A DNA stretch of 64,000 nucleotides from Capitulum mitella (Eukaryota > Arthropoda > Thecostraca > Pollicipedomorpha > Pollicipedidae). The notes beneath the pieces are model-generated. The model was not told the DNA's origin. It saw only the letters and a list, made by a program, of their open reading frames with translations, and searched no databases. Every line of letters begins with the position of its first letter. Within the stretch, counting starts at the first letter, position 1. Positions 1 to 61,365 of the stretch are shown here, piece by piece. The position numbers and the translations under genes were made by a program. The stretch lies in the NCBI GenBank assembly GCA_030062745.1, contig CP099851.1, positions 12,076,873 through 12,140,872 of the forward strand, written 5' to 3'.

Positions 1-2179
1 AAAATGTTGGTTATCCCCAGTGCGTACACACTTCGCATGGTCACAGATGATCAGAACCACATCTACGCTTTCTTTCTGTTCAGTTTTTTTTCTGTCCCAT
101 TCCTGTAAATTTTGGTCCCTAAAATAACGACCCTGGTCAGCGTTAAAATAACACCTCGTCATTATTGGGCTTTTACCTTGTGGCTGTGTCGCTGCCTGAT
201 GTTTTTGTGACTTACCTGCAGAAAATGGTCTGGAACATGGGTTTTCTGACGTAACGGGTATTGCATGAACCGATATTGTAGGATTTTATGTTGTGCTGTG
301 TGTGATCATTGAAAATGCGGTAGATGGTTTGACGAACACCAGAAACTTCCGACTGATATGTGTCAAGTTTGACCTAGGTTGATCTTGTTTGACCTTCATA
401 CAGTAGTTGCAGACTTCATAATCGTCCCAACAAAGTTTCGGCGTGATCTAGCATGAACACCATCTTTTAAATGAGAAAAAACGGGCACGAAACAAAAAGA
501 CAAAAAGGATGATTTGACTTAAGAGACCTCTCGTGACCTAAATACTGGCCTGATTGGACGAACTCTGGGTGGTTTCTTCTACTTTTGCAGAAGCGCGTTT
601 TTGTTTTTGTTTTTTTTTTCTTTGCCACTTACAATACTCGAGATCTTGGGGTGGTCTCATGACCCCTTTTCCCGCTCGACCCGGCGTCATGGATCTGGAG
701 GTTGGCTCGGCGAGAGTTGGGGGTTCAAGACGACTTCGGAATATGAATAAGATCTCATACTACTGTTGGTACACCAATCAGCGTTTCCGATTACATCAAG
801 ATCCTTTTAAGACTGATAAAAGGTTTACTGTTTCAAGATTATTGTTGGTAAACCTAAGGATGGCTATACTTATATAAGCTGCATTTTGCTAAATCTCATT
901 TTAAATACGCACTGCGATGGTGCATTAGTCATGAGAAAGACCTCCGGGCCAAGCCGTTGGCTGGCAGGTTATCGAGTGACCCTCGCGATACTACTTCTTA
1001 TTCGAAAGAAGTCGGAAAACTTAATAACTCTCCTCCTCTAGCATCTGTAGTCGGCGGTGTCAGCGGGCCTGAGAACATAGGACGCATATGGAAAGATTAT
1101 TTCTCGGATATCCTGAACTCGGTTTCCCATCAGCGTCTTAACCCTCGCCAGCCGAGGCGGTGGATGACACCGCCCAAGCCGTGTTTCCGAGACCACGGCA
1201 TAACGGCGCACGGCGGCGCCGTGAAATTTGGCATAGCTGGCGATGCTTTGATTGCGCATGTTTTGGAAAGAAGACTGGCCCAACTCATCTCAGATTACCG
1301 AACTATGACGTCATTACTAACGGCTTGCTGAGCCATTTTTGCGCGAAATGTCGGTTCTTACTGTTTTAGGACAATAGGAATGCATAAACGGCACATGACG
1401 GAGATGAAATCGGTTCAGAATGGCAGTCCACATGCAAACAGGTCATTTTAAATAGGTCAATGACTTTTTCACGATCAAACAAAATTAATGACCTAAGACA
1501 ACAGGTTTTGACCTTAGAACACGTTTCTGTAGTAATGTTTGGCACCAAAAACGATAAAGTAAGCAATTTGAGAACCATTTGACTCCAGAAAGTAGTTTTA
1601 ACTCCGAAAAATCGATTTATTGTTCTGAAGCATAAAGTTCCACCTGGCCTAGCATGTCACGGATTCACCTGACTGGTTCAAACCGGGCACCTTTGGATTC
1701 CTTGAACACAGAGTTATCGATCGCTCTTGGTCCCGAGGTGTTAGTTCAGTTACAGGCCAAATAGCAAGGGGGTGCCTACCAACCCCCCTCCGTCTTCGGT
1801 GCGAGTGCAAATCTCTCCCGTCCGGCGAGGATTAAGAGCTCCGTCATGTCGAGGCTAAATTAAAATTCGAATGCCTTGATCAATGTGCATGTTCATTGTC
1901 ACAGATAATGCCTAGTGCCGTCCATGGGCCACATTGACCGGTCGGCTCCGTCTCCGCAGCGGGTCATGTGAGGCGAGCCCGGACCCTCTCCTGCACAAAA
2001 GAGCAGAAACCTTTGCTGCCTCCGCCGTCATTCTGGTTATAGAAAGTTCTTAATACATTTACACAGCTATTTATGGTCATAATTGTACAGTAAAAGGGAA
2101 TACAAGCCTTAATTTGGAGAATTTCAGTCCTAAAACTGGCACCCTTTGTATGTAGTGGTTATTCTCGTTCCGCGTGTTA
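1..2179. other. No gene found
   Basis: Mixed-composition sequence with TGACC-rich patches at 360-410 and 1440-1520. The open frames at 554-877 and 957-1331 have no recognisable domain or splice context. Confidence 0.6.
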
Positions 2180-2296: not shown

Positions 2297-3010
2297 ACAG
2301 GCCAGACTTTTTATCTATCATCAGAATGAAATACTGCTTTGTCTGTGGAAGATCGCTCAATAGCAGAAGAGGGAAATTATTGTTCGTAGTCAGAAAAAGA
2401 AAATGACTTTCTGTCCTGACCTGGCTTGACCTTGACCCAATACACAGCAGACCCAGGAGATTTATCACGAGATATTCCTACAGTTCTGCATTTGACGTAG
2501 TTAAGAATACCAGCGAGTAAATATTGCTTTTGTCAGGAAAACTAATGCAACCTTATCTGACTTGACCTCGACTGACCTTGACTGGATGAAAAGCGAATAA
2601 TGCGTAACTGATCACCAGAATGTTTTGCCTCCGCCCTTTTTGCCACGTGGACCAAAACCGCCGCGAGTAAGTATAGATCTTTGACATGTAAACCCAGCAA
2701 AACCAGTATTTGGCCTGACTTAGGTGAGCTTGACGAGACATTTTTTTTAACATTTTGGCATGCTTCTGGTGCAGAAGACCGTGACATTATGTTTGATACC
2801 CAGATGAAGGCTCCAGGACCAGCATTGCTGAATATACGATGTACGAGCCGGTGTCAGTTTTTGCGACGTCGTGCTATGCGGTTTAGATCGTCTGTGATAT
2901 CATCAACCACGCGACCAGTGCTGGCGTAGTATTTTCCCAGTCGCAAGACTCAGAGCCATAGACTGGTAGACCACTTCAAATCCGATGGTTCGAGCCTGAG
3001 ATAAAATGGG
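2297..3010 (+). repeat. Dispersed AGGTCA-rich element, copy 1
   Basis: Shares ordered blocks with 30050-30790: AGAATGAAATACTGC, GATCGNTCANTAGCAGAAG, CCGCCCTTTTTGCCACGTGGA, CATGTAAA, GTTTGATACCCAG, GTATCAGTTTTT-ACGTCGT, CGCGACCAGTG and CCTGAGATAAAATGGGGTGC. It has many TGACCTTGACC motifs and no coding potential. Confidence 0.75.
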
Positions 3011-3296
3011 GTGCCCTTTTTTGACAACCTCCAGACGGTGGCGGGCACAAAAACACGCCAACTGGTGCCGAACTAACCCTTGTCAATACGCGCAACCCCC
3101 AACATTTTTGACAAGTTGCTTTGGATTCAAACTTTTTTCGTTTTATCAAAAAAATTCGAAGCTGATGCATTGAACGGTCGCTTTCCTTCTCGAGGGCTTG
3201 TCTTGGAGAAACAACGTTACGATTATCATCTTTGTCGGATGAGGAAGGTTTAAACATTTTACGGTCCTCAGTCTTACTCAATCTCACGTATGAGGA

Positions 3297-17049: not shown

Positions 17050-17690
17050 AGACATCAGAGCGTCTCGGTCGTACACCGGAAGGCCAAATATCCGGTTGTG
17101 ATTGACGAAACTGGGTAGGGTTATACGAGCCCGAACCGAAGCCCCAATCAGCTGAGGCGAAGGCGCCAAACTCACCAAGGCCGAAGAAAGTGCAGCGCAC
17201 CCCTGACAGGTTAAAAATGATGGTCATCGCAGTATCTGATCACGAGGGTGCACTCACTGGCCACGTGGTCCCACCAAGGCAGACAGTCAACAAGCGGTAC
17301 TACAAGTTCTACTTGAGCGACTATCGAGGGTGAAGATCTGCGGGAAGTGGCCAGAACTGCTGAAACGCCGGCCGCTGATCCTCCATAACAAAGCCACTTC
17401 ACACGAGGCGAGTGTTGTTGTGGTCCTCCTGGAAAATTGCGACTGGGAGGTGCTTTCCCATCCACCCTTTTCACCAGACCTGACTCCGCCGGACTTCGAT
17501 CTGCTCCCTAAGCTCAGGGGGGATCCCTAAGCCCATGAGCGGACAGCGCCATGGGGACCCGACGGCGCTCAAGGATGCCGTGTCTACGAGGGTGAAAGTG
17601 ACGTGGTATCAAGTCACTGTCGCAGAGGTGCGACACTGATTGGGAAGCAGGGGACCATACTGAAGTGCAGTAGGGCAATACAAGTTATGC
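17050..17690 (+). mobile_element. Mariner transposase C-terminal relic
   Basis: In order and with frameshifts: IDETG (first catalytic Asp); VVPPRQTVNKRYY at 17266-17305; RPLILHNKATSHEA, where the family has HDNA (second Asp lost to Asn); and HPPFSPDLTPPDFDLLPKL at about 17460-17515 with the third Asp; then a degraded tail (ALKDAV) near 17570. A stop and several shifts lie between the pieces. The N-terminal DNA-binding half is missing. Confidence 0.75.
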
Positions 17691-17699
17691 TTGCAAAAA

Positions 17700-20290
17700 T
17701 GTTTGCTACGGAAACGAAGACCACGGACTATTTATTGAGCCTCGTAAAACTAAAGCTTGTTTTCTGAATGATAAGAATGTGGGCCACAAAATGCCCAAGG
17801 GAAATAGATCAGCTTAAAGTACGTCATGTCTTGCCACTCACACACATATATAGGTATATGGTACTTTTCGAAGCGGACATCTTATTTGTAGTGGCAAAAC
17901 CAAAAGTATGCGCATAGGCTGGACAGGCCTAATTTAGGCAAAAAATGCTAAGACTTCACTACCATCCTTGCCATCTTGGGAATGCAAAGTTCCCTATGGA
18001 TCCGCATTCTGCACCTGTTAAGTGGGACAGCGCCTATTTAATCTTTACCTATGGTCCCAGCCTGATAGAAAATAGATGTGCATTCAGTGGGGTTACTTCG
18101 GTTGTGGGGGAAGGGGCAAGCGGGGCAGCCACCCTATCCCACCCTACACCTAAGAACAAGTGCCCTTAATCCGGGGGCCTTTCCAAAATCTGGGGAAATC
18201 CACCGTAGACTAGAACGTTTTTCACATGTTTTACCCCAGCCGCCCGACCTTAAGCTTCGGATGTTTTTCTCTGCAACCACCAAACCCCAATACCACTGCA
18301 TGAAGTCACTGAAAACTCACTATTTGCATGATGCAATATATCCAACCAGCAACTATCCCTAACCTACCTCCCATGGGTGTTATGCGATTTATCATCATCA
18401 AAAGACATGATCTGGTTCATCTTGGTATAGTGCCTGTCCGGAGGCGTTATTTTATTTGCACTGGATTGTGATTATCGTACAAGCAATATGCCGAGATGCG
18501 GGTCTCCCTAGTGATGTTCGTCAAGATAGTGGCATCAACAACAGTGAAGACTATGGACTTGCTCATGAGAAATATATCGACAGGGGGAAACAGCCCACTG
18601 AAGCGCGGACATGGCATGGCAGCGCGCCCCAGAAAGGGTTTGTTTATACATAGTTCCGGGAATGTGCGGGGCCGTGTGCAGTGGTGGATGTAGACATAGG
18701 AGTCGGTGAGCGGGTGAAGATGTTCCAAAAATTTAGGATTCCAAGAAATGCGAGAACTATGCTAAGCATGGCCAGCTTAAACGCAGTGGTCAAGGTCAAA
18801 TTTCAGCAGCGCGCCCCGTATTCAAATCCTGGATCCGCCCCCGACATCTGGGAGGGAACCGTCCGGCTCGGGCCCCGGGCTGACACGTGGGGTGGAGAAG
18901 GGAAAGGAGAGCCAGACCATGGCCGTAGGTGTGGATGTCGCAATGTCGAAACCGATGTAACATGGCGGAGTGCATCTTGGCGTTTAGGTACGTGAAATCT
19001 GAGCACGCTCGTAATAACTATTCAGCATCAAGCAACTTCATAAAATACATTCCATCTTATTTTCGTTTGCATTACGGAACAACCTATTGTTTTTGACATA
19101 TTAAAGCATTAACCATTCATATCAAGCACAGATCTGATAACATTGCCGGTATGATAGTGTCATGCAGTCCGGATATAATCTGAGCAAAGCAGTACATGGA
19201 GATATTATTGTTTAAACGCCTTTTCAGCAAGTACCGCGTCATTCGTGTCATGTGCATTCTCGGGGCTTAAAAAGGTTGGTAAGTTACGCATGAATTCCTC
19301 AGGCACAGCGGTGCATTCTGCAAGAGCTGAATGGTTTATCTTTGTATTTTATCTGGCATGACCGTACGTAGTCCATGTTAACTTCTCCGTTTACTTTTAT
19401 CGCCATTGCGGTCAACAGCACGAAATGTCAGGAAGCCCACTCGGCAATGCTGTCTCAGGGCTCCAAACGCCAGACCGAATTTTATGGCAAAAGTATTTAA
19501 ATGGGGTCCAATATCCGTGCACTGCGCGTGTTAAAAAAGTGTCACAGGCCCAGAAAACGCCGCCACATCGCCGCGTGACGTCATTGGAGCTTTGGCTGTC
19601 TGGCATCTTAAATCACAGAAATGAATATTGTAATAGGCGCGCACGCTTGCAGCTGCGCGTGGGACTTTTCTTAAGGCTGGGAAACAGTCGGCGAAGGTCG
19701 GCACACCGCTCGTAAACAAACGAAAATAGCTCTTAAAGACAACGCCGGTCGGACGGTCTACTCGACCACTCGCGACTGACTACTGGTTGAGAAGCCAGAC
19801 GCTAAGTTTGACTTGAACAGACGTAAGTAAGACGAAGGCAGCTCTACAAGAAAGTAAAATATGTCCCTCGTTGCAAAATACTGTACACTGGTATCCATCA
19901 GCGACTGCATCCCTAGACAACTGGAGGCTCTAAGGACTGGCCTAAACCGGAGCCGGAGAGTGGGAACTCTTCTGGACCTCTCGTGTCAAACGTATTTGAT
20001 CAAGGATCGCCTGATATAAGTTGTCGACAGCAGGAAAACATGCTACTAGTGGCAGCATCACCAGGATGTTAACATAAACCAGTGTCTACAAAACAAGCCA
20101 TGCAAACAGCAGAAGCATGGAAACGCTCAGAACCAAACCATGCATAACTATGCTCAAGAAAAACTAAAAACTCATGCGCGACATTTGTAGTTCAGAAGAG
20201 CGAATTGAACAGAAAAGCTCAGCATAGCTGCACGCCTTCAAACATGGGTAACTCGAAACATTACGGCTCAGGGCTGTTTGGGAATGTCAT
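17700..20290. other. No gene found
   Basis: No exon-like segment in either orientation; exons 2 and 3 of the orphan cuticle promoter were specifically looked for on the - strand between 19.6 and 20.3 kb and not seen. Confidence 0.55.
18775..18860 (+). repeat. tRNA-derived SINE-like sequence
   Basis: CGCAGTGGTCAAGGTC resembles box A, and TATTCAAATCCTGGATCC resembles box B at the expected spacing. The adjoining sequence is GC-rich. It is probably a SINE head. Confidence 0.4.
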
Positions 20291-20532
20291 TCCACTGCAG
20301 CACACGTATCTGCTGTTTGTTTGCTGCTGGACTGTGTTAGAGACCAGGGGCGTCGATTTCTGTAAATGATTGGGTGGCAGAGCCGAGGGTCCTACAACCT
20401 AACCTCCCCCAAATGTGAGTTTCTCAACGATTTAGCCTACTTTATTTTGATCAACAGAAATTGATAGGTTTTTTGTCACTGTTTATCAAATGAAGAATTG
20501 CATTTATCCCGTGTATAGAGGTATGCATATAT

Positions 20533-20534
<2 letters not shown>

Positions 20535-20584
<50 letters not shown>
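20535..20584. repeat. (AT)n microsatellite
   Basis: An uninterrupted AT dinucleotide tract of about 50 bp inside the hAT-type element, flanked by short ACAC and GATA runs. Confidence 0.9.
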
Positions 20585-20587
<3 letters not shown>

Positions 20588-20702
20588 ATAGAAAGATAGA
20601 TACATCGCTTTAGACTTTGTTATTGACTTTCTGCCTATCTCTTATCTATTACGGCCGTATTTTTCGTTATTATTACTCGGTTCCCTTTGTAACCGGCAGA
20701 AA

Positions 20703-20763
20703 ATATTGGGTGGGCCCAAGCCAGCATTGGGTGGGCCCAAATCAGCTCCGGGTGGGCCAGGGC
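20703..20763. repeat. Short tandem repeat, GGGTGGGCC core
   Basis: Three copies of a 21-23-bp unit with core TTGGGTGGGCCCAA, the last one diverged, inside the right half of the hAT-type element. Confidence 0.75.
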
Positions 20764-21049
20764 CCTCTCAAAAGAGTATAAATCGACACCCCTGTCAGAG
20801 ACTGAGCTCTCTAAAGGAAAATTGCCGGTTTTCATGCGCGGCAGTCACCTGGCTCTCGGCCTCTCGGTCTCGACTCGACTCGACTCGACGACTCTGCGGT
20901 CCGCTGTCCGCCCGAGTACATTTGGAAATTTCCGAGCGGAGGGGATCGTGTTGTGGGTGCAGTGAATTTCACCGCCTGACGTAACCGTGCAAACTGTGCT
21001 AAGACCTTTGGTAATTGGTCTGCGGTGGGAAGTAAGGCTTGACAGTTTT

Positions 21050-23210
21050 ATCGGCGTACCTGTTGACGTTCGACAAATGTCACTGCTCGAACAGACGTAA
21101 AAATGTAATGAACAATTAGTGTTGGTGAGCGAAGAGAGACGCTCTGAGTTGGGAGGATTGGAAATGACAACCACTCATTCCACATTTTGGCATTCTTTGG
21201 GATGGGCAACTGTGAACGTAAGACAGAAAAGTGGTCATTAAAGATTTGCGCTTTTGCGCAACATATGTATCGCGCGAGGCATTTCCCAACCCAAAATACC
21301 CTACATGGCTGACTTACCGCAGCAATAATTGGGTCAGAATCAACGGTTGAAAGAATGGAAGTCGTAAATCATATTATTTTTAACTTTCGCAGAAACGTTT
21401 ATCGGCTGCTCGTAAATAATGAAGTAAGAAGTTTGTTAAATGCACTGCCTTGTGTCCCAAGGAAATGTTTTCCCTTAACCTTTCCGGCTGATGAGATATG
21501 AAGTCCATCACTGTTTTTTCCACGCTGACAGAACCTGTTAACATGGCTCCAATATCCTACAGAGGACTATCGATCAGAAAACTGTGATCTGTTAGCAACT
21601 TCTCTTCATGTGCGTCCATATCAGGGAGCAAACGCCGAACCGAATGCACGATGCACAAGGTCCCACCTAGGCCTCCGAACCCGCGCCTCTCCTTTATTCT
21701 GTTTCGATACATTTGACGCGGCTGATTTCGCCTGAAGTCCATGGGGCACTTACTTGCCTCCACTTACCACCGCAACATTTACCGACCACTGGACTACAGG
21801 GTCTAAACCAAAGCCTGTGATCTGAAAGAACTTTCTATGTACGGCTAAGGATGTCAAGAATGTGACTGACGCGTTCCGGACAGCAAAAAAGACGTAAACC
21901 CCCGATTTCTGTGGTCTTACCTGCGGTGCTACAGGCACTTATTTCGATTCTGTTAGCAGCTTGTCAACCTTCAGATAGCCCCAATGCACGCTGGCAAGCG
22001 ATGCCTTGACCAGTAGCGGATTCGGGGCCTCAAACATAGGGTTTTGGGTCAGGAGCTGGGTATCCACAGACTTTTGGGTTATTTCTCTCTCGCTTTAGCC
22101 CTCTTAAATAGTCTAGTTTCAATACCCTTGCCAAAGACGATGGCTGCTATCTCGTCAAAGCTTCAGTTGCCGTTCCAGGGAGTCAAAACTGGAGATGTAT
22201 GTAGTTAACTGAAAATGACCATGGTGTATTGACAAAACCAACCTATCTTTGTTGCCTCCTTGTTTCTCCTCTTCGTTTTCCCTGGATCTGCCTTTGCCAA
22301 TGCACGTTCCGTCAGCCTCATTTCCCATATGTATTGTGCACAAATGCTACTATTAAGTTCAAATCAGCAATGTAAGCTATTGGTATACACGGATTGAAGT
22401 CTAAGCCTCTAAAATTTTTACACCTGGCCCCACCCTTGATCAAGATTTATGCTCCCACTACAACACAGGTTCGTCGTATATGTGTTTTAACACGTGAAAT
22501 CGTTTACTTGTGGAGCCATATCTTGTTTTCCACACGCAGAACCCATTTACACATGACGTTACATTGTCTCATAATGCTGCTTGCATCCGCCCCTGGCAGT
22601 CTCCAGCTATTTCTAGTACCATATGGACGGGCAATCATCATAAATATCATGCATTATCATTACAATATTGACAAGTGTCATCAAGACACCGATAAGTAAC
22701 GGATCCAGCATGTCTGAAATGACCACAATATGGCCCGACATGCGACCCAGTAATGTCCTCTGGAGTCGCTCCTGGTGTATATAAGAACTTGAAATTATGT
22801 GTGGGACATAAAGCGCATGATATGCGTTTAGGACGTAATGATGAAAACTTTACTCCGGTGAAGTCGCTAGATTTGAGCACGACAGCGCAACCATTTGGCT
22901 TTGCGCCGCACAAGAACAAGAAACGGGGGTGGAGGGGTGAATGTCGAATCGGACCAAGCATGAAAATGGAGTTCATGCATGCGCATTCATCTGCCCGCAT
23001 TTAACATCTGCACTGGCGGTAGAAGTGGGGAGGTGGAGATGGTGGAGGGGGGGATGCCTAACTCCCCATGCAATTTGCTTATAACTTTCGCTGTAATAGC
23101 GTTAGAGCCCTGCACTTTTGTCTGTACCTTGCTGAGGACCTTGTGGGATCTTTTCCGTTTGGAATTTTGGAATTGGGCGATTTGCTCGGCCGATTCGTCG
23201 TCGGCGGTGG
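21050..23210. other. No gene found
   Basis: Short random frames only; the upstream side of the orphan promoter shows no further cuticle-like sequence. Confidence 0.5.
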
Positions 23211-29724: not shown

Positions 29725-30930
29725 AGATATGATGCCGCAAGTGAGCCCTTGCATTCATGTTCGCGTTCAGCCATGTTCGCGCACCCGCCTCTTCTGGCGT
29801 GGGCGCGAACATGCTTCGTTTTTTATAACATTCGCGAACATAATGCATGGATTATTTCTATTTCCATAGGGCACGGTCCCCAGAGGGATATACAACCGTC
29901 CACATTAGAGGTCATGCTAGGTCACATACATGACAATTGGACTGATTTGCATTGTGGGTGAAAAGAGTGGCTGCTGCCGATCTTCACCATCGTCCTAGCC
30001 AGACAAGTAAATCTATATGCGCCTCTTAGCAAGGTCGACCAAATGCAACGTAAGGTCTTGTCAGGTCAGGATCATATGCAGATGTCAAAATGAAATGAAA
30101 TACAACATTGTGGAGGATCGTTCATTAGAAGCAAAGAGCAATTACTTCTCCTTTTCAGAAAAATAAAAATTACTGTCTGTCTGGAGGTGGACTGAACTCG
30201 GCCCCATGAAGAACAGACAGAACAGATTTAAACATCACGAACTCTCATTTCAGTCCCGTAATTGAGCTAATGAGGAATCCCAGTGAATAATTACTGCTCT
30301 TTCTCAGGAAGAGTAGTGCAACGCTATCTGACCCGACCTAGACTAACAATGACTTGATGGAAAACAGGTAATGCGAAAATGTTCATCAGAAGATTCCACT
30401 TCCGCCTTTTTGTCACGTGGATCAAAGCAGCTGCAAGTATCGATCTTCTGCATGTAAAGTTAGACCACTATGTCACCCGATGACCTTGACCCGACATTTT
30501 CTAACACTCTGGCATGCCTCGGTGCAGACGTCTGTGACATATCGTTTGATACACAGTTAAAGTCTTGAAGACCAATATTGCCGCTGATATGATGCACGAA
30601 CCGGTATCAGTTTTTCCAACGTCGTTTTGTGCGTTTTACACGACCTGTGACGTCATCAGTCACGTGACCGGGGCTAACATAATGTTTTCTGAATTGCAAG
30701 ACCCAGGTCTATCCACTAGTGGTAGATCGGTTCAGATCGGATGGTTAGATCCTGAGATAACAGGGGGTGCGTTTTTGACATCTTCAGGTGATCGAGGATA
30801 TGAAAACACGTCAGATGATGCCGGGGTCAAGCACTGCTCAATTGAACAAAATAATAAAGTTGTTGGCGTTATATGTTGCGCGGGCCTGCCATTGACCTGT
30901 TCAAAGATAAAGGCCTAGCGGGAGGTCATT
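29725..30930 (+). repeat. Dispersed AGGTCA-rich element, copy 2 (long form)
   Basis: About 1.2 kb. The left part has AAGTGAGCCCTTGCATT, CGCGAACATGCTTCGTT, a GGGATATACAACCGTC block and GACAATTGGACTGATTTGCATTGTGGGTG. The right part matches copy 1. It is present inverted at 33.7-34.8 kb. No transposase is visible, so it is probably a non-autonomous element. Confidence 0.8.
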
Positions 30931-33709: not shown

Positions 33710-34797
33710 TGGTGACTGTTAACCCGGCGCCGCCTCGCGTATTCTTGTGCGCGTGAACACTTGGGGGGGCGTCAAAAAGGGCAGTCCCTGTTATCTCAGG
33801 ATCTGACCGTCGGATCTGAATCGTTCTACCACCCATCGATAGCGCTGAGTCCTGCGATTCAGAAAATATTACCCGATACTTGGCTGATGACGTCACAGGT
33901 CACGTAAAACGTGCAACACGACGTCGGAAAAACTGACACCTGTCCCTACATCATATCATTGGCAACACTGGTCTTAGAAACTTCAACTGGGTATGAAACA
34001 AAAGGTAACGGTCTTCTGCAACAGGATCATGCCAAATGCACAACAATGTCACGGCAAGGTCAACCTAGGTCAGGTGAAATATTGATCTTGATTTTCATGC
34101 CAAAGATCGATACTTACTCGCAGTCGTTTTGTTCCATGTGAGCGAAAATGAAACGTGACGGAAGTAAAACCTAATTGTCTGCTTTTATTACATTACATAT
34201 TTTTCATTCAACCAAGGCAAATCTAGATCAGGTCTTCCGCATAATGTCAGTCTAGGTGATGATTAAATCTGTTCTGTCTGTTTTTATCGTGTCAAAGTTA
34301 AGCCAGGCCAGGACAAATAGTCATTTTTACTTTTCTGACCAGGAACAGTAATTGCTCTCTGCTGCTACAGAATTCCGTTGTCGTCTGCTTCTACAGACAA
34401 CGTTGTATTTCATTCCGTTTTGGCCTCTACCCATGGCGTGACTTGACATGACCTTACGTTGCATTTGGTGGACATAGAGGTATGACTCAGTATATGGACA
34501 TATGGTATGGACTAAGAGGCATATATATATTTATTTGTCTGGCTTGAACGATGGGGAGGATCGACAGCAACCACACCTATCACCCACAATGCAAATCAGT
34601 CCAATTGTCATCATGCATGTGACCTAGCATCACCTCTAGTGCTGATGTGTGACGGTTGTATATCCTTCTGGGTACCGTGTCCGATATAAATAAAAAAAAT
34701 TCATGCATTATATTCGCGAATATTATATAACAAACGAAGCATGTTCGCGCCCCCACCAGAAGAGGCGAAACATCAATGCAAGGGTTCACTTATGACG
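33710..34797 (-). repeat. Dispersed AGGTCA-rich element, copy 3 (inverted)
   Basis: Reverse-complement match to 29725-30800, including CACCCACAATGCAAATCAGTCCAATTGTCAT near 34580, GGTTGTATATCC, the TGATGACGTCACAGGTCACGT segment and the CTGTTATCTCAGGATCTGA end. Clearly diverged from copy 2. Confidence 0.8.
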
Positions 34798-37504: not shown

Positions 37505-38165
37505 CGAGGTGTAGTCCAAAAGTAACAGCCGTTATTTTCTTAAACTCCTGATAAGCAGAAATTGTTTATTAGGGCGCCATTCAGGATCATTTTCATGTGC
37601 TGTCTATCGCTGAAAAACATTATAAGCTTGTATCGTTACAAGTCAAGGCACCACAGTCTGTTCAACCACATCATTTTTTTGAGACCACCATGTCTGAGAT
37701 CGCAGGTATCAGCTTCTTTGCAATGGAGCAGCGCGCAGTCATCAAATTTCTATCTGCGCAAGGAAAGCCTGCGTGTGAGGTTTATGAGGAACTCCTGGTG
37801 GTCGTCGGCAACTCCGTGCTTAGCGAAGGCCGTTTTTGAGAATGGTTGCGGATGTCGAAAGCCGTAAGACAGGACCCCATTGACTTGCCACGTGCCGGGC
37901 GGCCTCGGTCATCAATGACCACAGAGAATGCTACCCAAGTGGAGAACTTCACCAAAGAAAACCGAAGAATCACTTTTGATGGGAAAGCTGAACATCTGGA
38001 TCTCTCCCGCGTGACTGTTCATCGCATGATCACCGACGACCTTGCGATAACGAAGGTAAGTGCAAGATGGCTGCCGCGTCAGCTGGACGACGGGAAGGAG
38101 GTGCAAACTGATGCATGCCGGTCACTTCTGGAACGTCATCTGGCTCATCTGGCATCTGGTCATCT
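37505..38165 (+). mobile_element. Mariner transposase N-terminal relic (second subfamily)
   Basis: Starts near a mariner-like end (TGTAGTCCAAAAGTAACAGCC). Frames at 37597-37839 and 37846-38175 encode MEQRAVIKFLSAQGKPACEV, a frameshift, RAGRPRSSMTTENATQVENF, LSRVTVHRMITDDL and KVSARWLPRQLDDG: the two helix-turn-helix motifs and the linker typical of mariner. The catalytic half is gone. After 38120 the sequence passes into CATCTGG microrepeats and a dispersed repeat. Confidence 0.75.
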
Positions 38166-38174
38166 GGCAGCCTA

Positions 38175-38345
38175 AATACATGGTTTGACCAAAGATGGCC
38201 TCGACCGCAGTACAACCGCAATAAACAGAACCGCAATAACTTAGGCCACTGACACTAAGGGTGACTTCCCTGAACAAGGCCGAGCAAGATGTGAACACTG
38301 TAAAAGCCTGGCGTATTTTGTACGATGAAGACCAGCGCCACACCA
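38175..38345. repeat. Dispersed short repeat B, copy 2
   Basis: Contains TTGACCAAAGATGGCC, AGGCCACTGACACTAAGGGTGACTTCCCTGAACAAGGC and GTGAACACTGTAAAA, following the mariner relic. Confidence 0.6.
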
Positions 38346-38905: not shown

Positions 38906-38912
38906 CCCTAAA

Positions 38913-39044
38913 AGTTTCCAAATCTGCCCAACCGGATTATAAGCGACAGTGTCATCTCACCAAGCGGAGTCGAGACCGGGAGTTCAAGATTTAGCTGACT
39001 GCGGCACATAAAAGCAGGTCGGTGTCCAGGTGGGGGCATCAGTC
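38913..39044 (+). promoter_or_regulatory. Core promoter of cuticle gene A
   Basis: A TATA-like ATAAAAG at 39008-39014 lies 33 bp upstream of the A in a TCAGTC arthropod initiator (39039-39044, predicted start 39041). The leader to the ATG is 27 nt. A block AGTTTCCAAATCTGCCC at 38913-38929 recurs at almost the same distance upstream of gene B, so it may be a shared enhancer element. Transcription start is inferred. Confidence 0.7.
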
Positions 39045-39067
39045 TACCGCACAGCCCAGGAGAAGAC

Positions 39068-39153
39068 ATGCAGCTGGTACGTCGGTATCGTGAAGCGACA
39101 GTCGGATGGTGTTTTAAACCGCTTCTTTGGTGTTCAACCTGTGTTGCTTATGT

Positions 39154-39196
<43 letters not shown>

Positions 39197-39972
39197 GCTC
39201 AGTCGGTGCTTTTCATTCGTGCTCAGGCAATATAAGGTATGTTGTTTGTAATTATTTCCGCCGCAAACACATTAATCCTCTGGTGACACGGCATTTTTAA
39301 CTCATATTGCTTGTATGTTTTCAAGCAGTTTAACTTGGTGAGCGTGCGAGATAATCCGTTTTATTGCATGTCAGTTCACAGTCGTTGCCCTTGCGGCTGC
39401 TGCCTTGGCTGCACCTCAGCCACAAATCAACGACGTCGGCCAGGACTTGAGCGGCCAACAGTACTCCAGAATTGATCGACCGGAAATCAGGATTCTCAAT
39501 CAGAAGTTCGAGCAAGATGTTTACGGGAACTACGAGTACAGCTACGAACAGGACAATGGGCAAAAGGTGGGAAAACGCCAGGTGGAAAAAATGCTGTTGT
39601 TCCTGTGTTGCACATATTGCTGTACTCCAAAGTGGACAGAGTACCTGCTTTCAAAATGCTAACAATACAAAACGAAACATTTATCTTGCATGACGTATCG
39701 TTCCTTTCGGATTCCAGGTGGACGAGGTTGGCCGGGTAGAGCCCGGGCCAGAGCCGAATACAGGCAGTATCAGCAAACAGGGAGGCTTCCAGTTCGTCGC
39801 CGACGACGGCCAGACCTACCAGGTCAGCTACGTGGCCGACGAGGGCGGCTTCCAGCCGCAGGGCGCCCACCTGCCGCAGCCGCCGGCTCAGATCCCCGAG
39901 TACGAACAGCTGAGACGGGACTACCCGCAGCTGTTCTGGGCTGAAAACGCTGGGGCAGGGATCCGTCCGTAA
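39068..39972 (+). CDS. Cuticle protein, RR-type chitin-binding (gene A), 3 exons
   Basis: Secreted structural protein expected to bind chitin in the exoskeleton. CDS exons are 39068-39076 (Met-Gln-Leu), 39375-39566 and 39718-39972, joined by two phase-0 GT-AG introns of 298 and 151 bp; product 151 aa. Residues 1-16 form a signal peptide with an Ala-rich core, followed by APQP. Residues 56-65 (YEYSYEQDNG) and 90-120 form the Rebers-Riddiford domain (Pfam chitin_bind_4), with core GFQFVADDGQTYQVSY, then VADEGGF and GAHLP. The C-terminus is a proline-rich tail ending near YPQLFW. The start was chosen because the ATG follows a TATA/initiator pair and a 27-nt leader shared with gene B; a 3-codon first exon that splits the signal peptide is usual for this family. 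Intron 1 carries an (AT)n tract. No AATAAA was found near the 3' end. Function comes from the family; gene structure is read from the sequence. Confidence 0.9.
39157..39194. repeat. (AT)19 microsatellite in gene A intron 1
   Basis: A pure AT tract of 38 bp, 80 bp downstream of the intron 1 donor. Confidence 0.95.
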
Positions 39973-45700: not shown

Positions 45701-46145
45701 CGCAGTTGACGTTTTTTACAACCATTTTTTTTTCTTGTAAGCATGTTGGTTTGGAAGAAATAACCATACTCTAGCATCGTTTTCTAAGCTGAAGAAACAT
45801 CTCTTCCTCACAGCTCAACGATGCTCCAGGATCCTGGCCGATCAGTTTCTTTCATTCCGCTGAAATTGTGTTTTAAAACTCTGTAATCTAAGGAAGTTTA
45901 TGCCCATTGCGGATATTTCCCTTTCAGCTGCGTGAAATGCATGAAATTTTCGTCTGTAACAAGCAAATCATCGGAAATTCGCATTCCTACGTCATACATA
46001 TGCTTTATAGATATTGACTTGCCTTCTACTTTTGCGTTTCGTTATGCCAAATGGATTCTCTAAGTGCCTGTAGTGCGCTATTTACTGCGTAGGCCAATGT
46101 AATGTGGCAGCTGGTTATGACACCCTTGTAAAATTCAAGAATCGG
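42800..46145. other. No confident gene
   Basis: Only the isolated exon-like segment at 44.2 kb stands out. 44662-44697 has ATGTTTTGTAAACAAAACAT and GTAAACAAACACATG, a small palindrome with forkhead-like TGTTTAC sites. Confidence 0.45.
44188..44331 (+). CDS. Possible isolated exon, unknown product
   Basis: A 144-nt segment bounded by acceptor ATATCTCAG and donor TTAG|GTATGA with a single open frame (1 nt in, 2 nt out) encoding a beta-strand-like stretch (ATWNFTAIEGTFSKLTFQL). No partner exons were identified, and extracellular beta-sandwich origin is only a guess. Confidence 0.2.
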
Positions 46146-46149
46146 TCGG

Positions 46150-48472
46150 ACTGCAGTCGGACTGGGACCAGGTTTACCGTGAAACGCTGATTGACCGTAA
46201 TTTGGAGGAATTTATGCTTGTGTGGTGGAGTGCAGCTGATGTGCATTGTCCTCTCAGAACGGTGATCCCTCGTCACTCCCATTGCCCATGGCTTAAGACT
46301 AGCCCTGACCTGTGGCAACTGATGCAGGAGCGGAACGACGCGTATCGGAAGTGGTGTCAATCTCGAAGCGTGACCGATTTGGCCGCATATCGACGCCTTC
46401 GTAACAGCGTTAAGAGTCTTTTCGCTCGGGCTAAGCGCAACTTCCTGTGTGCCAGTATGCTTGCCGACCGTGCCAGTTTTTGGAGGGGAATAAAAAGCTT
46501 CGCTTTTTAGCCCGCCCAGGGGGAGGGGGTGCCGCCGGAGAAATGTTCGCTGAGCAGGCTGACGACTTCAAACGCCATTTTGCGTCCGCCGGCCCTCGTA
46601 TTACTGCCGAACTGGCAGCGGGAAGCCACGGTGGCACCCCGCTTCCACCTAGACATGCGTGACCACATCCAGTCTAGGTCTGTCTCCTTCCACTCTCCCT
46701 GAACTCTCGAGAGCTATGAGTGATTTGCCATCGTCGAGGGCGGTAGGACATGACGGCGTGCCGCTGTACGCGCTACGAAAATGTTTCCCCATCCTCGGGC
46801 CACATTTACTTCATCTGATCAACAGTTCTATCGTCACTTGTGTTTTTCCTTCCTCCTGGAAGATGGCCTCTGTTCTTCGTCTTCACAAATCAGGCCTGCG
46901 TGACATCGCCAGCAACTTTAGACCCATACATATCTTACCTGCGCTGTCGAAGATATGTGAAAAGATCATGTGCACACAGTTGTCTTCTCCGCACATCTCT
47001 CTACCTAAGATCTTTTAGCTCCATCACAGTATGCATTTAGACCATGTCACTCGACGGAGGACGCCCTGGTTGACGTGGAGTGGATGGTGCATCGCAATGA
47101 CGGTGGCACGTCGTCGCCGTCACCTCGATTGACCCAGCTGAGCTTTTGACAGTGTCGAGCATGACTCCCTCATGACCAAGTTCCAATGGTATGGCATCGA
47201 TCCCGGGTGGTTCGAGAGTTACCTGGCTGATAGGCAGCAGGTCGTGAGAGATGGTTATCTCTCCCTTCCTTTCTCCCACGGCGTTCCGCAGGAGTCCATT
47301 GTCCATCGTCCATTGTCCATGGTCCAATGTCCTATCCTCTTCAGCATCTTCACGAACAACGTTCCATCCTATCTGCTTCATGGACGTCCTGTATCCTATG
47401 CCGATGACATTCAGCTGCTAGACTCCGCACATCCTGGTCATGTATCCATCCTATCCTCTTCAGCATCTTCACGAACGAACTTCCATCCTATCTGCTTCAT
47501 GGACGTCCAGTATCCTACGCCGATGACACCCAGCTGCCAGACTCCGCACATCCTGGTCATGTATCCATCCTAAAACCCCGGCAAGAAGAGACTCTCCTTG
47601 CCGTGAAATCCTGCTTCACATCCAACTCCTTGAAAATGAATCCATCCAAAACAACCCTGCTTCTTGTCGGCACAGCCCATAATCTCAAGACCACATCCTT
47701 CCATCTTAATTTTGCCGGCCACATACAAACTACTTCTCCGCCCGTGAAGATCCTGGGCACTATCGACAACTCCTTGTCCTGGAAGGAGCACGTATTCAAG
47801 GTTATCAAAATGTGCAACTCCATCCTGCTCTGTTTGTATAAGATACGTCACCACCTTACGCCAGAGGTCCTTACACTCCTAATCCAGTCACATGTTTTGC
47901 CCCACATCCTTTACTGCCTTTCGGTCTGGGGCGGGGCCGCGTCGTGCCATCTTAGCAGAGTTCAGAGGGTGGTGAACTTTGGGGCCAGGATGGTCTCCGG
48001 GGTTCGTAAGCGGGATTCGGTGTCGGCGACCTTGAGGGCACTAGGCTGGCGCGCTGTACGTGACCTGGTTGTGAGGCGCCACAGCATTGGTGTCTTCCGA
48101 GCCCTGAGCGACTCGCTTGCTCCGGTGGCGGCCCGGTTCCTGTTCATTCCACGTACCGCTGTGTCCCAGCGTGCGATCCGGGCGTTGGCGGCCGGCGCCT
48201 TAGAGCCGCCGACTTTCCGTTTGTCTGTCCCGCAGGGCTTCTTTCGTATCGCGCGGCCTCGTCCTGGAACTGCCTGCCGCGGCACATCACCGCCTCTCGA
48301 ACCCGTGGAGAGCTTTCATGCAAACTTAACGAATTTTCTCCTATAATTTGACGTGTATGCCTGCTTAGTTTTGTCTGCACGACTACTGCGCATGTGCTGT
48401 ACTGTAATGACTAGAATCAAAGAGTAATATACGCGGCGGAAAGATTCGCAAATAAGCTGAACTGAACTGAAT
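46150..48472 (+). mobile_element. Non-LTR retrotransposon (LINE), 5'-truncated and frameshifted
   Basis: The element starts in the linker before the reverse transcriptase (SPDLWQLMQERNDAYRKW; SFWRGIKSF), so the endonuclease domain is missing. The RT pieces follow in order: a gap-region frame with EMFAEQADDFKRHFAS (46540-46600); SSRAVGHDGVPLYALRKC; SSWKMASVLRLHKSG and NFRPIHILPALSKICEKIM (46659-47018); a damaged motif A (FDSVEHD, frameshifted near 47150); GIDPGWFESYLADRQQ; the catalytic YADD box at about 47398; then MNPSKTTLLLVG, the thumb and a 247-aa C-terminal frame (47603-48346). The 3' end is CTGAACTGAACTGAA. It belongs to the CR1/Jockey-like group, clade uncertain. Several frameshifts and a 119-bp tandem duplication make it dead. 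Confidence 0.85.
47331..47568 (+). repeat. 119-bp tandem duplication across the LINE catalytic YADD box
   Basis: Units 47331-47449 and 47450-47568 are nearly identical. Each includes the codons for SYADD, so the polymerase active-site box is present twice, the second copy in another frame because 119 is not a multiple of 3. Confidence 0.9.
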
Positions 48473-57694: not shown

Positions 57695-57916
57695 ATATCC
57701 TTATCCGCAACTTGTGGCCTTTTTCTTCCATCATACATTGTTCGTCACATTATTACATTCCGACTAAACCATAATTTACCAAGCGTCAGCATCAGTAAAA
57801 AAAACTCGTAAGCCTTACTTCCCACCGCAGTCCAATTATCGGAGGTCTTAGCCCAGTTCGCGCAGTTGCGACAACCGGTGAAATTCACCGCACCCACAAC
57901 ACGATCTCCTCTCGGA

Positions 57917-58049
57917 AGTTTCTAAATCTGCCCGGATGGGTGGCAGAGCGTCATGGTCACCTCGTCCAGTCGAGCCGAGCCCGAGAGGTCGAGAGGCGGC
58001 TGACTGCCGGGAATAAAAACCGACCGGTGTCCGTGTGCGGGCATCAGTC
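57917..58049 (+). promoter_or_regulatory. Core promoter of cuticle gene B
   Basis: ATAAAAA at 58013-58019 lies 33 bp upstream of the A in TCAGTC (58044-58049, predicted start 58046). The 27-nt leader is the same length as in gene A. The block AGTTTCTAAATCTGCCC at 57917-57933 sits 129 bp upstream of the start, against 128 bp in gene A. Similarity to the orphan promoter at 20.8-21.0 kb extends upstream to about 57812. Confidence 0.7.
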
Positions 58050-58072
58050 TCTGACGCAGGCCGGCAGCAGGG

Positions 58073-60008
58073 ATGCAGCTGGTACGTGCGCGGCAACGGA
58101 GCGCAAGACTCAAGCTGTTAAAGTGGTCTGTCGGACCAGCCTTTGTGACTTTGCCTCAGTGCCTCAGTTGATACTGCGGGCCAGTCGGCTAACACTTTTT
58201 ACTGGTATTGGTGAATATTTATCACGCACTTCGTTATATGTCGTTATGTGTGCATATGCTTTTACTTAAAGCATTGCTAGATACCATGTCTGCTCTTTGT
58301 GGTAGGTGGAATAATCCTATAGCATGCGGGAGCGATTTTATTTCGCTTTGATTTGAAAAGCCCAACCCGAACAAGTACTCTCAATAAAAATGCTCTTACC
58401 CGTTTTTTTTCAGTTCACAATCGTCTTCCTCGCGTGCGTTGCCCTGGCTGCACCTCAAAGTCAGAGCATCGAAAATTTCAACCAGGACTTGACCGGCCAA
58501 CAGTACAACAGTAGAAATGGTCAGCGTGGGATCCGTGTCGTCAGTCAAAAGTTCGTGCAAGACGTGTTCGGGAACTACGAATACGGCTATGAACAGGACA
58601 ATGGACAAAAGGCGAGCGGATGCCAGATAGAGTGATGCATTGACCGGCAATGCAAGTATTGTATTCACAACAGGGCAAACAGCTCACAAAGCAAGCGCAT
58701 TGACTTACTTTATTGTCACTGCATCAGAAGGACGAAAAAGTAGTTTTACTGCTTTTGTCAGTAACCAACCAACTACTTACTGTATTATTTTTATTTTCCT
58801 TATTCTCCACATATATGTGCGACTTTTTGTTTACATTCATCATAGACAGCACTGGCTTTTTGACCATCTTCGACAGTACGGAGGGGAGGAGGTCACGATC
58901 CCCCAGCCGTTTTCAAACATGATGTGCTAGAGCAACGAAACAAAAACGAATGGTTAGGTTAGTAGTTTAGCTAAACGATAATGGCCTGCTTGACCTTTTT
59001 AGATCACGCAGTGGCCTTTCAGGCGGCGTCAAATGACGTACTGTCAGCGGATTTTCATTTTGATCGATCCCTACGGAACGTGAGCTATGAGGCGCTCTTG
59101 AGAGGCTCAAACTTATTTTTAACAGCAAAGAAGGACTCAGATTACTTTTTATGCAAATTAGCGTTTTAAACCGCATCATGACCCCTCTGAGGTCGATACG
59201 AAAAGCTTGAAAGGATAAAAAGGCCCCGAATCCATGGTTTTGGCCTGAGATGACCTTGACCAAAGTAAAGAGTACAGTGCGGAGGCCACTGACGCCACAG
59301 ATGGCACTTATGTTTAAGATCTAGCAGGACTTTATATCGTAGCACGGCTAGAATATTTCCTGTCAGAAGAAGACCGCCGCCGTGGCGTGATATCTCGGTG
59401 ACACGCCCCCGCGAAAGAGGTCATAAGCCCGTAACTTTTCAAGGTACTGAGCCCAAATCTGGAGAAAACTTGTAAACAGGTTCAAAACTTCGCTATGCGG
59501 CATTTCAGAGTGATCGAGGCAGTCGTCCTGCGGAAAGTTCCGATAACCACCTTGGCAAAACAAACCAATTTTAAGGACATGAAAATCGACTTCAGGCATC
59601 ACAAAAAGAAGAAAAAGTGAAAGAGGTGCACCCGTCACCCTAGACCGGCGAGGGTTAATGCTATCAGCTCACAGATAAGCTATCATAACCAAATCTGCTT
59701 ATCCCACGTGACGAATGGCTCATTTTCTCCCTCAGGTGGAGGAAATAGGTCGGATAGAGCCCGGACCACTGCCGGATAAAGGCAGTCTCCGCCAGAAGGG
59801 CAGTTACCAGTTCGTCGCCGACGACGGCCAGACCTACCAAGTCAGCTACGTGGCTGATGAGTACGGCTTCCAGCCGCAGGGAGCCCACCTGCCGCAGCCG
59901 CCGGCTCAGATCCCCGAGTACGAACAGCTGAGACAGGACTATCCGCAGCTGTTCTGGGCTGAAAGTGGCGGAATAGGGGTCATTCTGAACGACCAGCAGT
60001 TCAACTAG
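58073..60008 (+). CDS. Cuticle protein, RR-type chitin-binding (gene B), 3 exons
   Basis: Paralogue of gene A. CDS exons are 58073-58081 (Met-Gln-Leu), 58414-58611 and 59736-60008; product 159 aa. The signal peptide spans about residues 1-16 and is followed by APQSQ. The Rebers-Riddiford domain starts at YEYGYEQDNG in exon 2 and continues in exon 3 with YQFVADDGQTYQVSYVADEYGF and GAHLP. The tail ends EYEQLRQDYPQLFW plus a short Ser/Gly/Asn-rich end. Intron 1 is 332 bp with a T-rich acceptor; intron 2 is 1124 bp and holds dispersed repeat. The donor of intron 2 reads AAG|GCGAGC where gene A has AAG|GTGGGA, so splicing needs a GC-AG intron, or the gene is damaged; the reading frame fits only if this position is the junction. 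Exon 3 is about 95% identical to exon 3 of gene A over the core, while exon 2 is much more diverged. Reading on through the donor meets a stop at 58633. Confidence 0.85.
59195..59375. repeat. Dispersed short repeat B, copy 3 (in gene B intron 2)
   Basis: Contains GATGACCTTGACCAAAGTAAAG, GGAGGCCACTGACGCCACAGATGG and AGCAGGACTTTATATCGTA. It explains part of the long second intron of gene B. Confidence 0.6.
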
Positions 60009-61365
60009 CAGCAGTTTGTTGACCGAGAATTTCTCCAAGAAACGTTCCTTGATTGAGAGTCCGTAGATCAATGGAGGCGCCAGTTTCATGCGCAGTTATG
60101 TCCTTAAAACCCTCGACATGAACTGTGTGTTCTGCTACTAGTTTGATTCAACCAGCGATGTCGTTTTGTGTTATGTTGTCGACAACATTCACTAGTCCGT
60201 TGTATTGTGTGCGGCTTGTGCCATGTTGCATCTCTGATGCCCCAAAAATGTGTATGTGTGGTGTGGCCGAGAATGAAAAGATGCGTGGTGTTATAATCCA
60301 TCCCTACTTAATAGCGTCAAAAACTGTGTTTATTGCTTCCCCGGCTTCAGGCATAGTTACGAAATAACGGAGTGTGTTATAAATCTCGATGTGTTGCAGT
60401 AAAGAAGGAAACTGGAGAAAACGAATGAACTTTGCTTTACTGTATTGCTTCATTGAGCCATTATGCGACGTTTTGTGGTTACTTACGAGGCTTCATATTA
60501 AGTCGACATACTCGTAAATCCCACAAATGATCCTTTCTAGTTGCATACGGGCTACCAGACTACTGTGCCTCTGTCCAGTTACGTAATGTTATGCTCGGTA
60601 AGTCTTCACAATGCATCACATTCGAATTTTCATGTCTTCAGACCCAACTGATGTCTGTCGTCATGGTAAAGCTTGACCAGTCAGTGGAGTCGGGAAAGAC
60701 ATAAGCATTATGAAGGTAGAAGAAGGCCGGCGTTGGCGTTCGGTAAACAAGCTTGGGGAATGAAATATATGAATGCTTGTGGGTAAGACGTGCCATAAAT
60801 ACAACTCAAAAAGCGGGTCTTCCAGCGAAGGCAAAACTTTCATGGAATCTTGCGGAATTTCCGTACCTACGAAAATCCTGCCGCACTAGTTTTTGCATTT
60901 TCCTTACGTTTACGAGCAAGGCCAAATGCCGACTGAGTCTTCAACTAGCAAAAAAATAAAAAATCGGACTGAACCGACAGCTCTGCCACGACGCGTACTG
61001 CAAGTTATAACTTTACGACCATGGCAACGAGTCATGAAGTTTTCAATGGGAGATACCTGACTTCTTGGACCTTTATGTGCTTCCATTTCCAATGAGTAAC
61101 TTGCAAGCTGTTTCTTCTACTTGCCTAATCCTGTGGCAACATTTTCGGTGCTTTCACCTGTTCTTCACAAGTGCTTTTGAACGGCTCAGTAACGGCAGCG
61201 AACAATATCAGGGGAGCGCTTGACGTACAAACTTGCAATTACCCGGATGCAAACTGTTGGGAAAGATCGCAAAATGCCTGTTTGTCTCACGAAATGAATA
61301 AAGGGTACTGAACGTCATGATACAATAAGTAATGAAGAGTAATTGGGACGACCGCCCCCTCCCCC
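60009..61365 (+). other. 3' flank of gene B, no other gene
   Basis: A TGTTGTCGACAACA palindrome lies near 60174. The first AATAAA in + orientation is near 61297, too far for a confident polyadenylation site. Confidence 0.4.

Follow-up and report, generated by a model that had tools for sequence, protein, structure and literature searches.

An exon-less promoter copy split by a hAT-type MITE as a probable dead fragment of a cuticle gene in Capitulum mitella

What does a cuticle-gene promoter represent when it has no gene behind it and is cut in two by a transposable element? The window, which is the whole 64,000-nucleotide stretch of Capitulum mitella DNA analysed here (C13:12076873-12140872), contains two intact plus-strand cuticle genes, gene A (38912..39972) and gene B (57801..60009). 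Both were delimited by protein and genome searches, serve as living comparisons, and encode a Chitin_bind_4 domain (PF00379) in exon 3. Searching the whole genome (477 Mb, 16 contigs) with exon 3 of gene B yielded 11 close copies on C13 among the best 150 of 256 candidates, and exon 2 also yielded 11 copies on C13 (38/38 candidates scored); the two sets match one to one. Two further regions of the same contig are related to these genes. C13:12226794-12232004 (L002, L038) is an inverted near-copy of gene B, with 98% identity in exon 3 (protein level), 98% in the promoter and 97% in intron 1, and C13:21699464-21714774 (L003, L039, L046), 9.6 Mb off, harbors a second A-/B-like gene pair.

A third, inverted cuticle promoter had been proposed from the letters of the window, and the comparison with gene B confirmed its presence. 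On the minus strand, positions 21049-20803 and 20344-20296 together duplicate a Chitin_bind_4 gene from its promoter through the leader to exon 1. By blastn, 20794-21049 (-) aligned with 57801-58055 of gene B at 76.7% identity over 258 columns (E 8e-49). The promoter part, from upstream block to initiator (20803..21049, -), was placed by blastn and shuffles, and the leader and exon-1 remnant (20296..20344, -) by alignment and shuffles. The upstream side alone scored 206 against B, the maximum of 300 dinucleotide shuffles being 27. With the L044 leader, the far side of the insertion (20344-20244, -) gave a score of 51 (53 bp, 79%; maximum 28), with B 33 (maximum 26) and with O5, an exon-less promoter outside the window, 36 (maximum 29), each over 500 shuffles. 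Homology is thus significant separately on both sides of the insert, which supports the explanation as a partial dead copy. Once the element and one target duplication were removed, alignment ran along the minus strand between 21049 and 20296, covering the leader and extending beyond exon 1. We conclude, with a probability of roughly 0.8, that the locus is a pseudogene fragment that copies only the 5' end of a Chitin_bind_4 gene and is now dead.

The interrupting sequence is a 450-bp element, as the sequence-only reading had it, and lies at 20345-20794. Target duplications of 8 bp and short inverted ends of the CAGGG type mark hAT elements. By repeat-family comparison the element has 15-bp inverted ends, CAGGGG(C/T)GTCGATTT, which read CAGGGGCGTCGATTT and CAGGGGTGTCGATTT in the window copy. 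Comparison of the element flanks identified a target duplication on the leader side, TTAGAGAC (20337..20344), and one on the promoter side, TCAGAGAC (20795..20802). The 8-bp duplications claimed earlier are therefore present, but as near-identical copies alike at 7/8 positions; they differ at a single position, at which the promoter-side copy retains the B sequence. Judged by its duplications and ends, the insert is a hAT-type MITE.

The MITE belongs to a large, dispersed family. The genome search returned 5699 candidates, of which the best 40 were scored and 30 loci, including the window copy, were kept. Exact CAGGG..CCCTG ends occur at 17 of these 30 loci, and the window copy has a CAGGG-type start at both ends. 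Among the 17, the duplications are identical at 8/8 positions in nine, at 7/8 in five (including the window copy), at 6 in two and at 4 in one, so that 14/17 share 7 or 8 of 8. With ends allowed to vary, 22/30 loci share 7 or 8 of 8 positions (8/8 in 14); a random-flank control gave 4/600 with 9 offset pairs per trial and is not like for like, as for the real varied ends the choice was among as many as 120 pairs, filtered by end sequence. Of the 30 copies, 26 entered a tree (4 of the 29 other loci were too short), which was star-like, with 1/23 inner branches well supported. The end branch of the window copy measured 0.083 changes per site (median 0.092). The element thus resembles non-autonomous hAT elements in its 8-bp duplications, short CAGGG inverted ends, many copies and star-like tree, the assignment here being made from duplications and ends.

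Other repeats were observed in the window. Positions 2324-3070, 29786-30823 and 33771-34767 constitute one repeat family (70-74% alike, one copy inverted). Broken frames with a YADD motif at 46121-48346 resemble what we take to be a non-LTR reverse transcriptase; within this region a 124-bp segment is duplicated in tandem (copies at 47330-47453 and 47449-47572, 93.5% alike), and its frame 47408-48346 had no Pfam match at 0.001. Frames at 17240-17530 and 37840-38175 resemble pieces of a mariner-type transposase.

The state of the promoter copy was assessed by alignment with the promoters of 10 of the 11 living genes; that of L045 was missed by blastn and excluded. The earlier statement that the copy reproduces the promoter holds for the spacing of its elements: the joined dead copy has 123 bp between TTTCYAAAT and TCAGT, as against 125 for B and 124 for A, and the values given before, 127 against 128-129, use other landmarks with the same 1-2 bp difference. 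It does not hold for the elements themselves, as the TATA and the initiator are both damaged, beyond what had been stated. The TATA-like site CATGAAAA (20829..20836, -) has a core changed from AATAAAA to CATGAAA, where living copies have AATAAAA or CATAAAA, and the initiator relic GCTCAGT (20801..20807, -) is one base short of GCATCAGT, its A being deleted. Loss of the start codon and the donor was likewise corroborated by alignment. Exon 1 of the dead copy (20318-20310, -) reads AAACAGCAG, compared to ATGCAGCTG in gene B; the ATG of gene B (58073-58075) corresponds to AAA, and its donor GT (58082-58083) to AT at 20309-20308 (-).

In total, the dead copy is changed at 10/56 columns that are invariant in the 10 living promoters, namely an A of the ATAAAA core, the A lost in GCATCAGT, two ATG bases, the first base of the donor GT and five more. 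O5 is changed at 5/56 of these columns, gap columns counted. In a leave-one-out comparison, the living promoters are changed at 0 to 8 of 56 to 64 columns (29/589 overall). The MITE sits at the former transcription start. Judging from these sequence changes, the copy should yield no cuticle protein and probably gives little or no transcript.

Consistent with the earlier description of the promoter as gene-less, none of the 11 exon-2/exon-3 pairs on C13 (found among the best 150 of 256 exon-3 candidates) is tied to it. With gene B exons, tblastn gave no other window match better than E 0.88, and profiles of exons 2 and 3 built from the 11 genes, gene A included, had no match under E 0.5 within window positions 1-24802. 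What the copy does retain is the upstream flank, the promoter, the leader and a remnant of exon 1, followed by about 255 bp from the intron side. Exon 2 and a Chitin_bind_4 exon 3 were not found by these searches, and TATA, ATG and donor are all altered, which does not fit a whole working gene; kept promoter and intron sequence, missing later exons and disabling changes fit a partial duplicated pseudogene.

One could suppose instead that the living gene at C13:12072163, 25 kb downstream, has an exceptionally long first intron and uses the block as its far promoter. That gene does lie on the same strand, and among the whole-genome matches scored no exon 2 or 3 falls on the minus strand between it and the dead copy. 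However, it has its own TATA-to-donor region at C13:12073173-12073268, and donor and ATG are lost in the dead copy. The gene's own promoter and exon 1 rule this candidate out, leaving its probability close to zero.

From which member of the family was the copy derived? Gene B had been named as the source. Within the promoter B is indeed similar, but on either flank the only strong match is to O5, which replaces gene B as the closest relative by flanking sequence. O5 is located at C13:12064726 (+), outside the window by about 12 kb on its left side and 33 kb from the dead copy (at about 1501-1984 of L005, C13:12063226-12066426). Scored against O5, the upstream stretch 21066-21680 reached 101.9, where shuffles reached at most 20.9, and the intron-side stretch 20031-20300 reached 71.1, where they reached at most 23.7. 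Against eight other family members per side the flanks scored at or near chance, save for a weak upstream match to B3 (26.2 compared to a shuffle maximum of 16.9); the upstream score of B was reached by 2/200 shuffles. A permissive alignment joined the two orphan promoters from window 21674 to 20040, and together with the flank scores defines an upstream flank (21050..21674, -) and an intron-side flank (20040..20295, -) common to both, exon 2 not being found in the latter. Genome searches with the two flanks returned only the window itself and missed O5 too, indicating low sensitivity; they revealed no large repeat family.

O5 keeps an intact TATA, ATG and donor, lacks 7 bp between TATA and initiator, and has one changed base in the initiator region. 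No exons 2 or 3 of O5 were found in exon searches that included the whole genome, with profiles from 11 genes. An acceptor-like site lies 226 bp past its donor, in sequence common to the dead copy; both orphans have this site, and an in silico join of O5 exon 1 to it yields 16 codons. These intact signals raise the idea that exon-less promoters are kept as working units, O5 being transcribed at moulting as a non-coding RNA or micropeptide and the window copy being its MITE-disabled sister. This is a speculative and very improbable reading.

Within the promoter itself the signal was mixed. A tree of the core promoter placed the dead copy beside L040/L042 (91/91), against the O5 and B readings alike, and a tree of the wide promoter grouped it with the B copies (73/80). 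In AU tests, a pairing of the dead copy with O5 was not rejected (p 0.07 core, 0.21 wide), a pairing with L042 was rejected on the wide alignment (p 0.0035), and a clade with the B copies was disfavored on the core alignment (p 0.039). Of the 31 sites separating O5/L044/L041 from L040/L042, the dead copy sides with the first group at 18 and with the second at 9, and matches neither group at 4. Sequence exchange among neighbouring promoters would account for the conflicting trees.

These data bear on the earlier reading's history, in which gene B gave rise to a duplicate that decayed and shed its exons, the MITE arriving only afterwards. The upstream block of the dead copy is highly similar to B (84.6%), the wide tree places it among the B copies, and its changes exceed those predicted from the MITE end branch alone: at 0.083 per site, at least 10/56 changes have p 0.016. 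The flanks match O5 and not B, however, the core alignment speaks against the B clade, and p rises to 0.20 once the ~5% change of living copies is added. We consider this history unlikely. The order in which decay or exon loss came before insertion was thus not established, and insertion of the MITE may have preceded decay.

The same upstream block was also considered as a regulatory piece, an enhancer or decoy, retained after gene loss. Its identity to B exceeds that of the core (84.6% compared to 70.4%; Fisher p 0.006), but living B and B3 display a like contrast (92.8% compared to 84.3%). Selective retention of the block is unsupported on account of this shared contrast, and a regulatory role appears very improbable.

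We therefore return to the partial dead copy and its probable origin. O5 sits between the living genes L040 and L042, which are tandem duplicates (74% over 2.9 kb, plus further blocks). The tandem units are collinear to about window position 802, through a dispersed repeat, and in the first unit some 45 bp more precede the start of the O5 segment. The window copy carries this segment in inverted orientation, with its end at 21674, 20.9 kb off. The neighbourhood of the window copy yielded no match to what lies downstream of O5. The repeat at window 1-802 gave 549 genome candidates, the best 40 of which were scored, at about 70-77% alike. As proof of a segmental duplication, the repeat at 1-800 is weakened by its dispersed family, and it was used only within the collinear series.

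The inverted orientation would be most simply accounted for if a tandem duplication came first and an inversion of about 20.9 kb, with breakpoints near window 802 and 21674, came second. A unit with one living gene and the O5 ancestor would have been duplicated in tandem, resulting in the L040 gene with O5 and the L042 gene with the dead copy, and the inversion would then have flipped the dead copy. Its exons would have gone by partial duplication or deletion, the MITE landing before or during decay. This duplication-inversion history is an inference: the connecting repeat is dispersed, and a match to the O5-downstream region was not found beside the window copy.

Both parts of this account have parallels. 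Partial gene duplicates with a breakpoint inside an intron are described in a review (PMC3449122); as there, 5' flank, promoter and first exon were copied here without later exons. In contrast to those cases, a breakpoint is indistinguishable here from a later deletion because the exons are missing from both exon-less copies. For Drosophila cuticle-protein (CPR) clusters, tandem duplication and gene conversion are described (PMC2793513). The present cluster likewise combines paralogues lying close together, tandem copies and a promoter whose ancestry is possibly mixed, although here the organism is another arthropod and the promoter copy is dead.

Overall, we regard the dead copy as an unremarkable partial pseudogene into which a MITE has inserted. 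It looks like a common fossil left by turnover within a gene family, and illustrates clearly the shedding of copies by a cuticle-gene cluster. For annotation it is a warning, as the promoter-like block at this position marks no gene. The less ordinary part of the finding is O5, exon-less and yet with its working signals intact.
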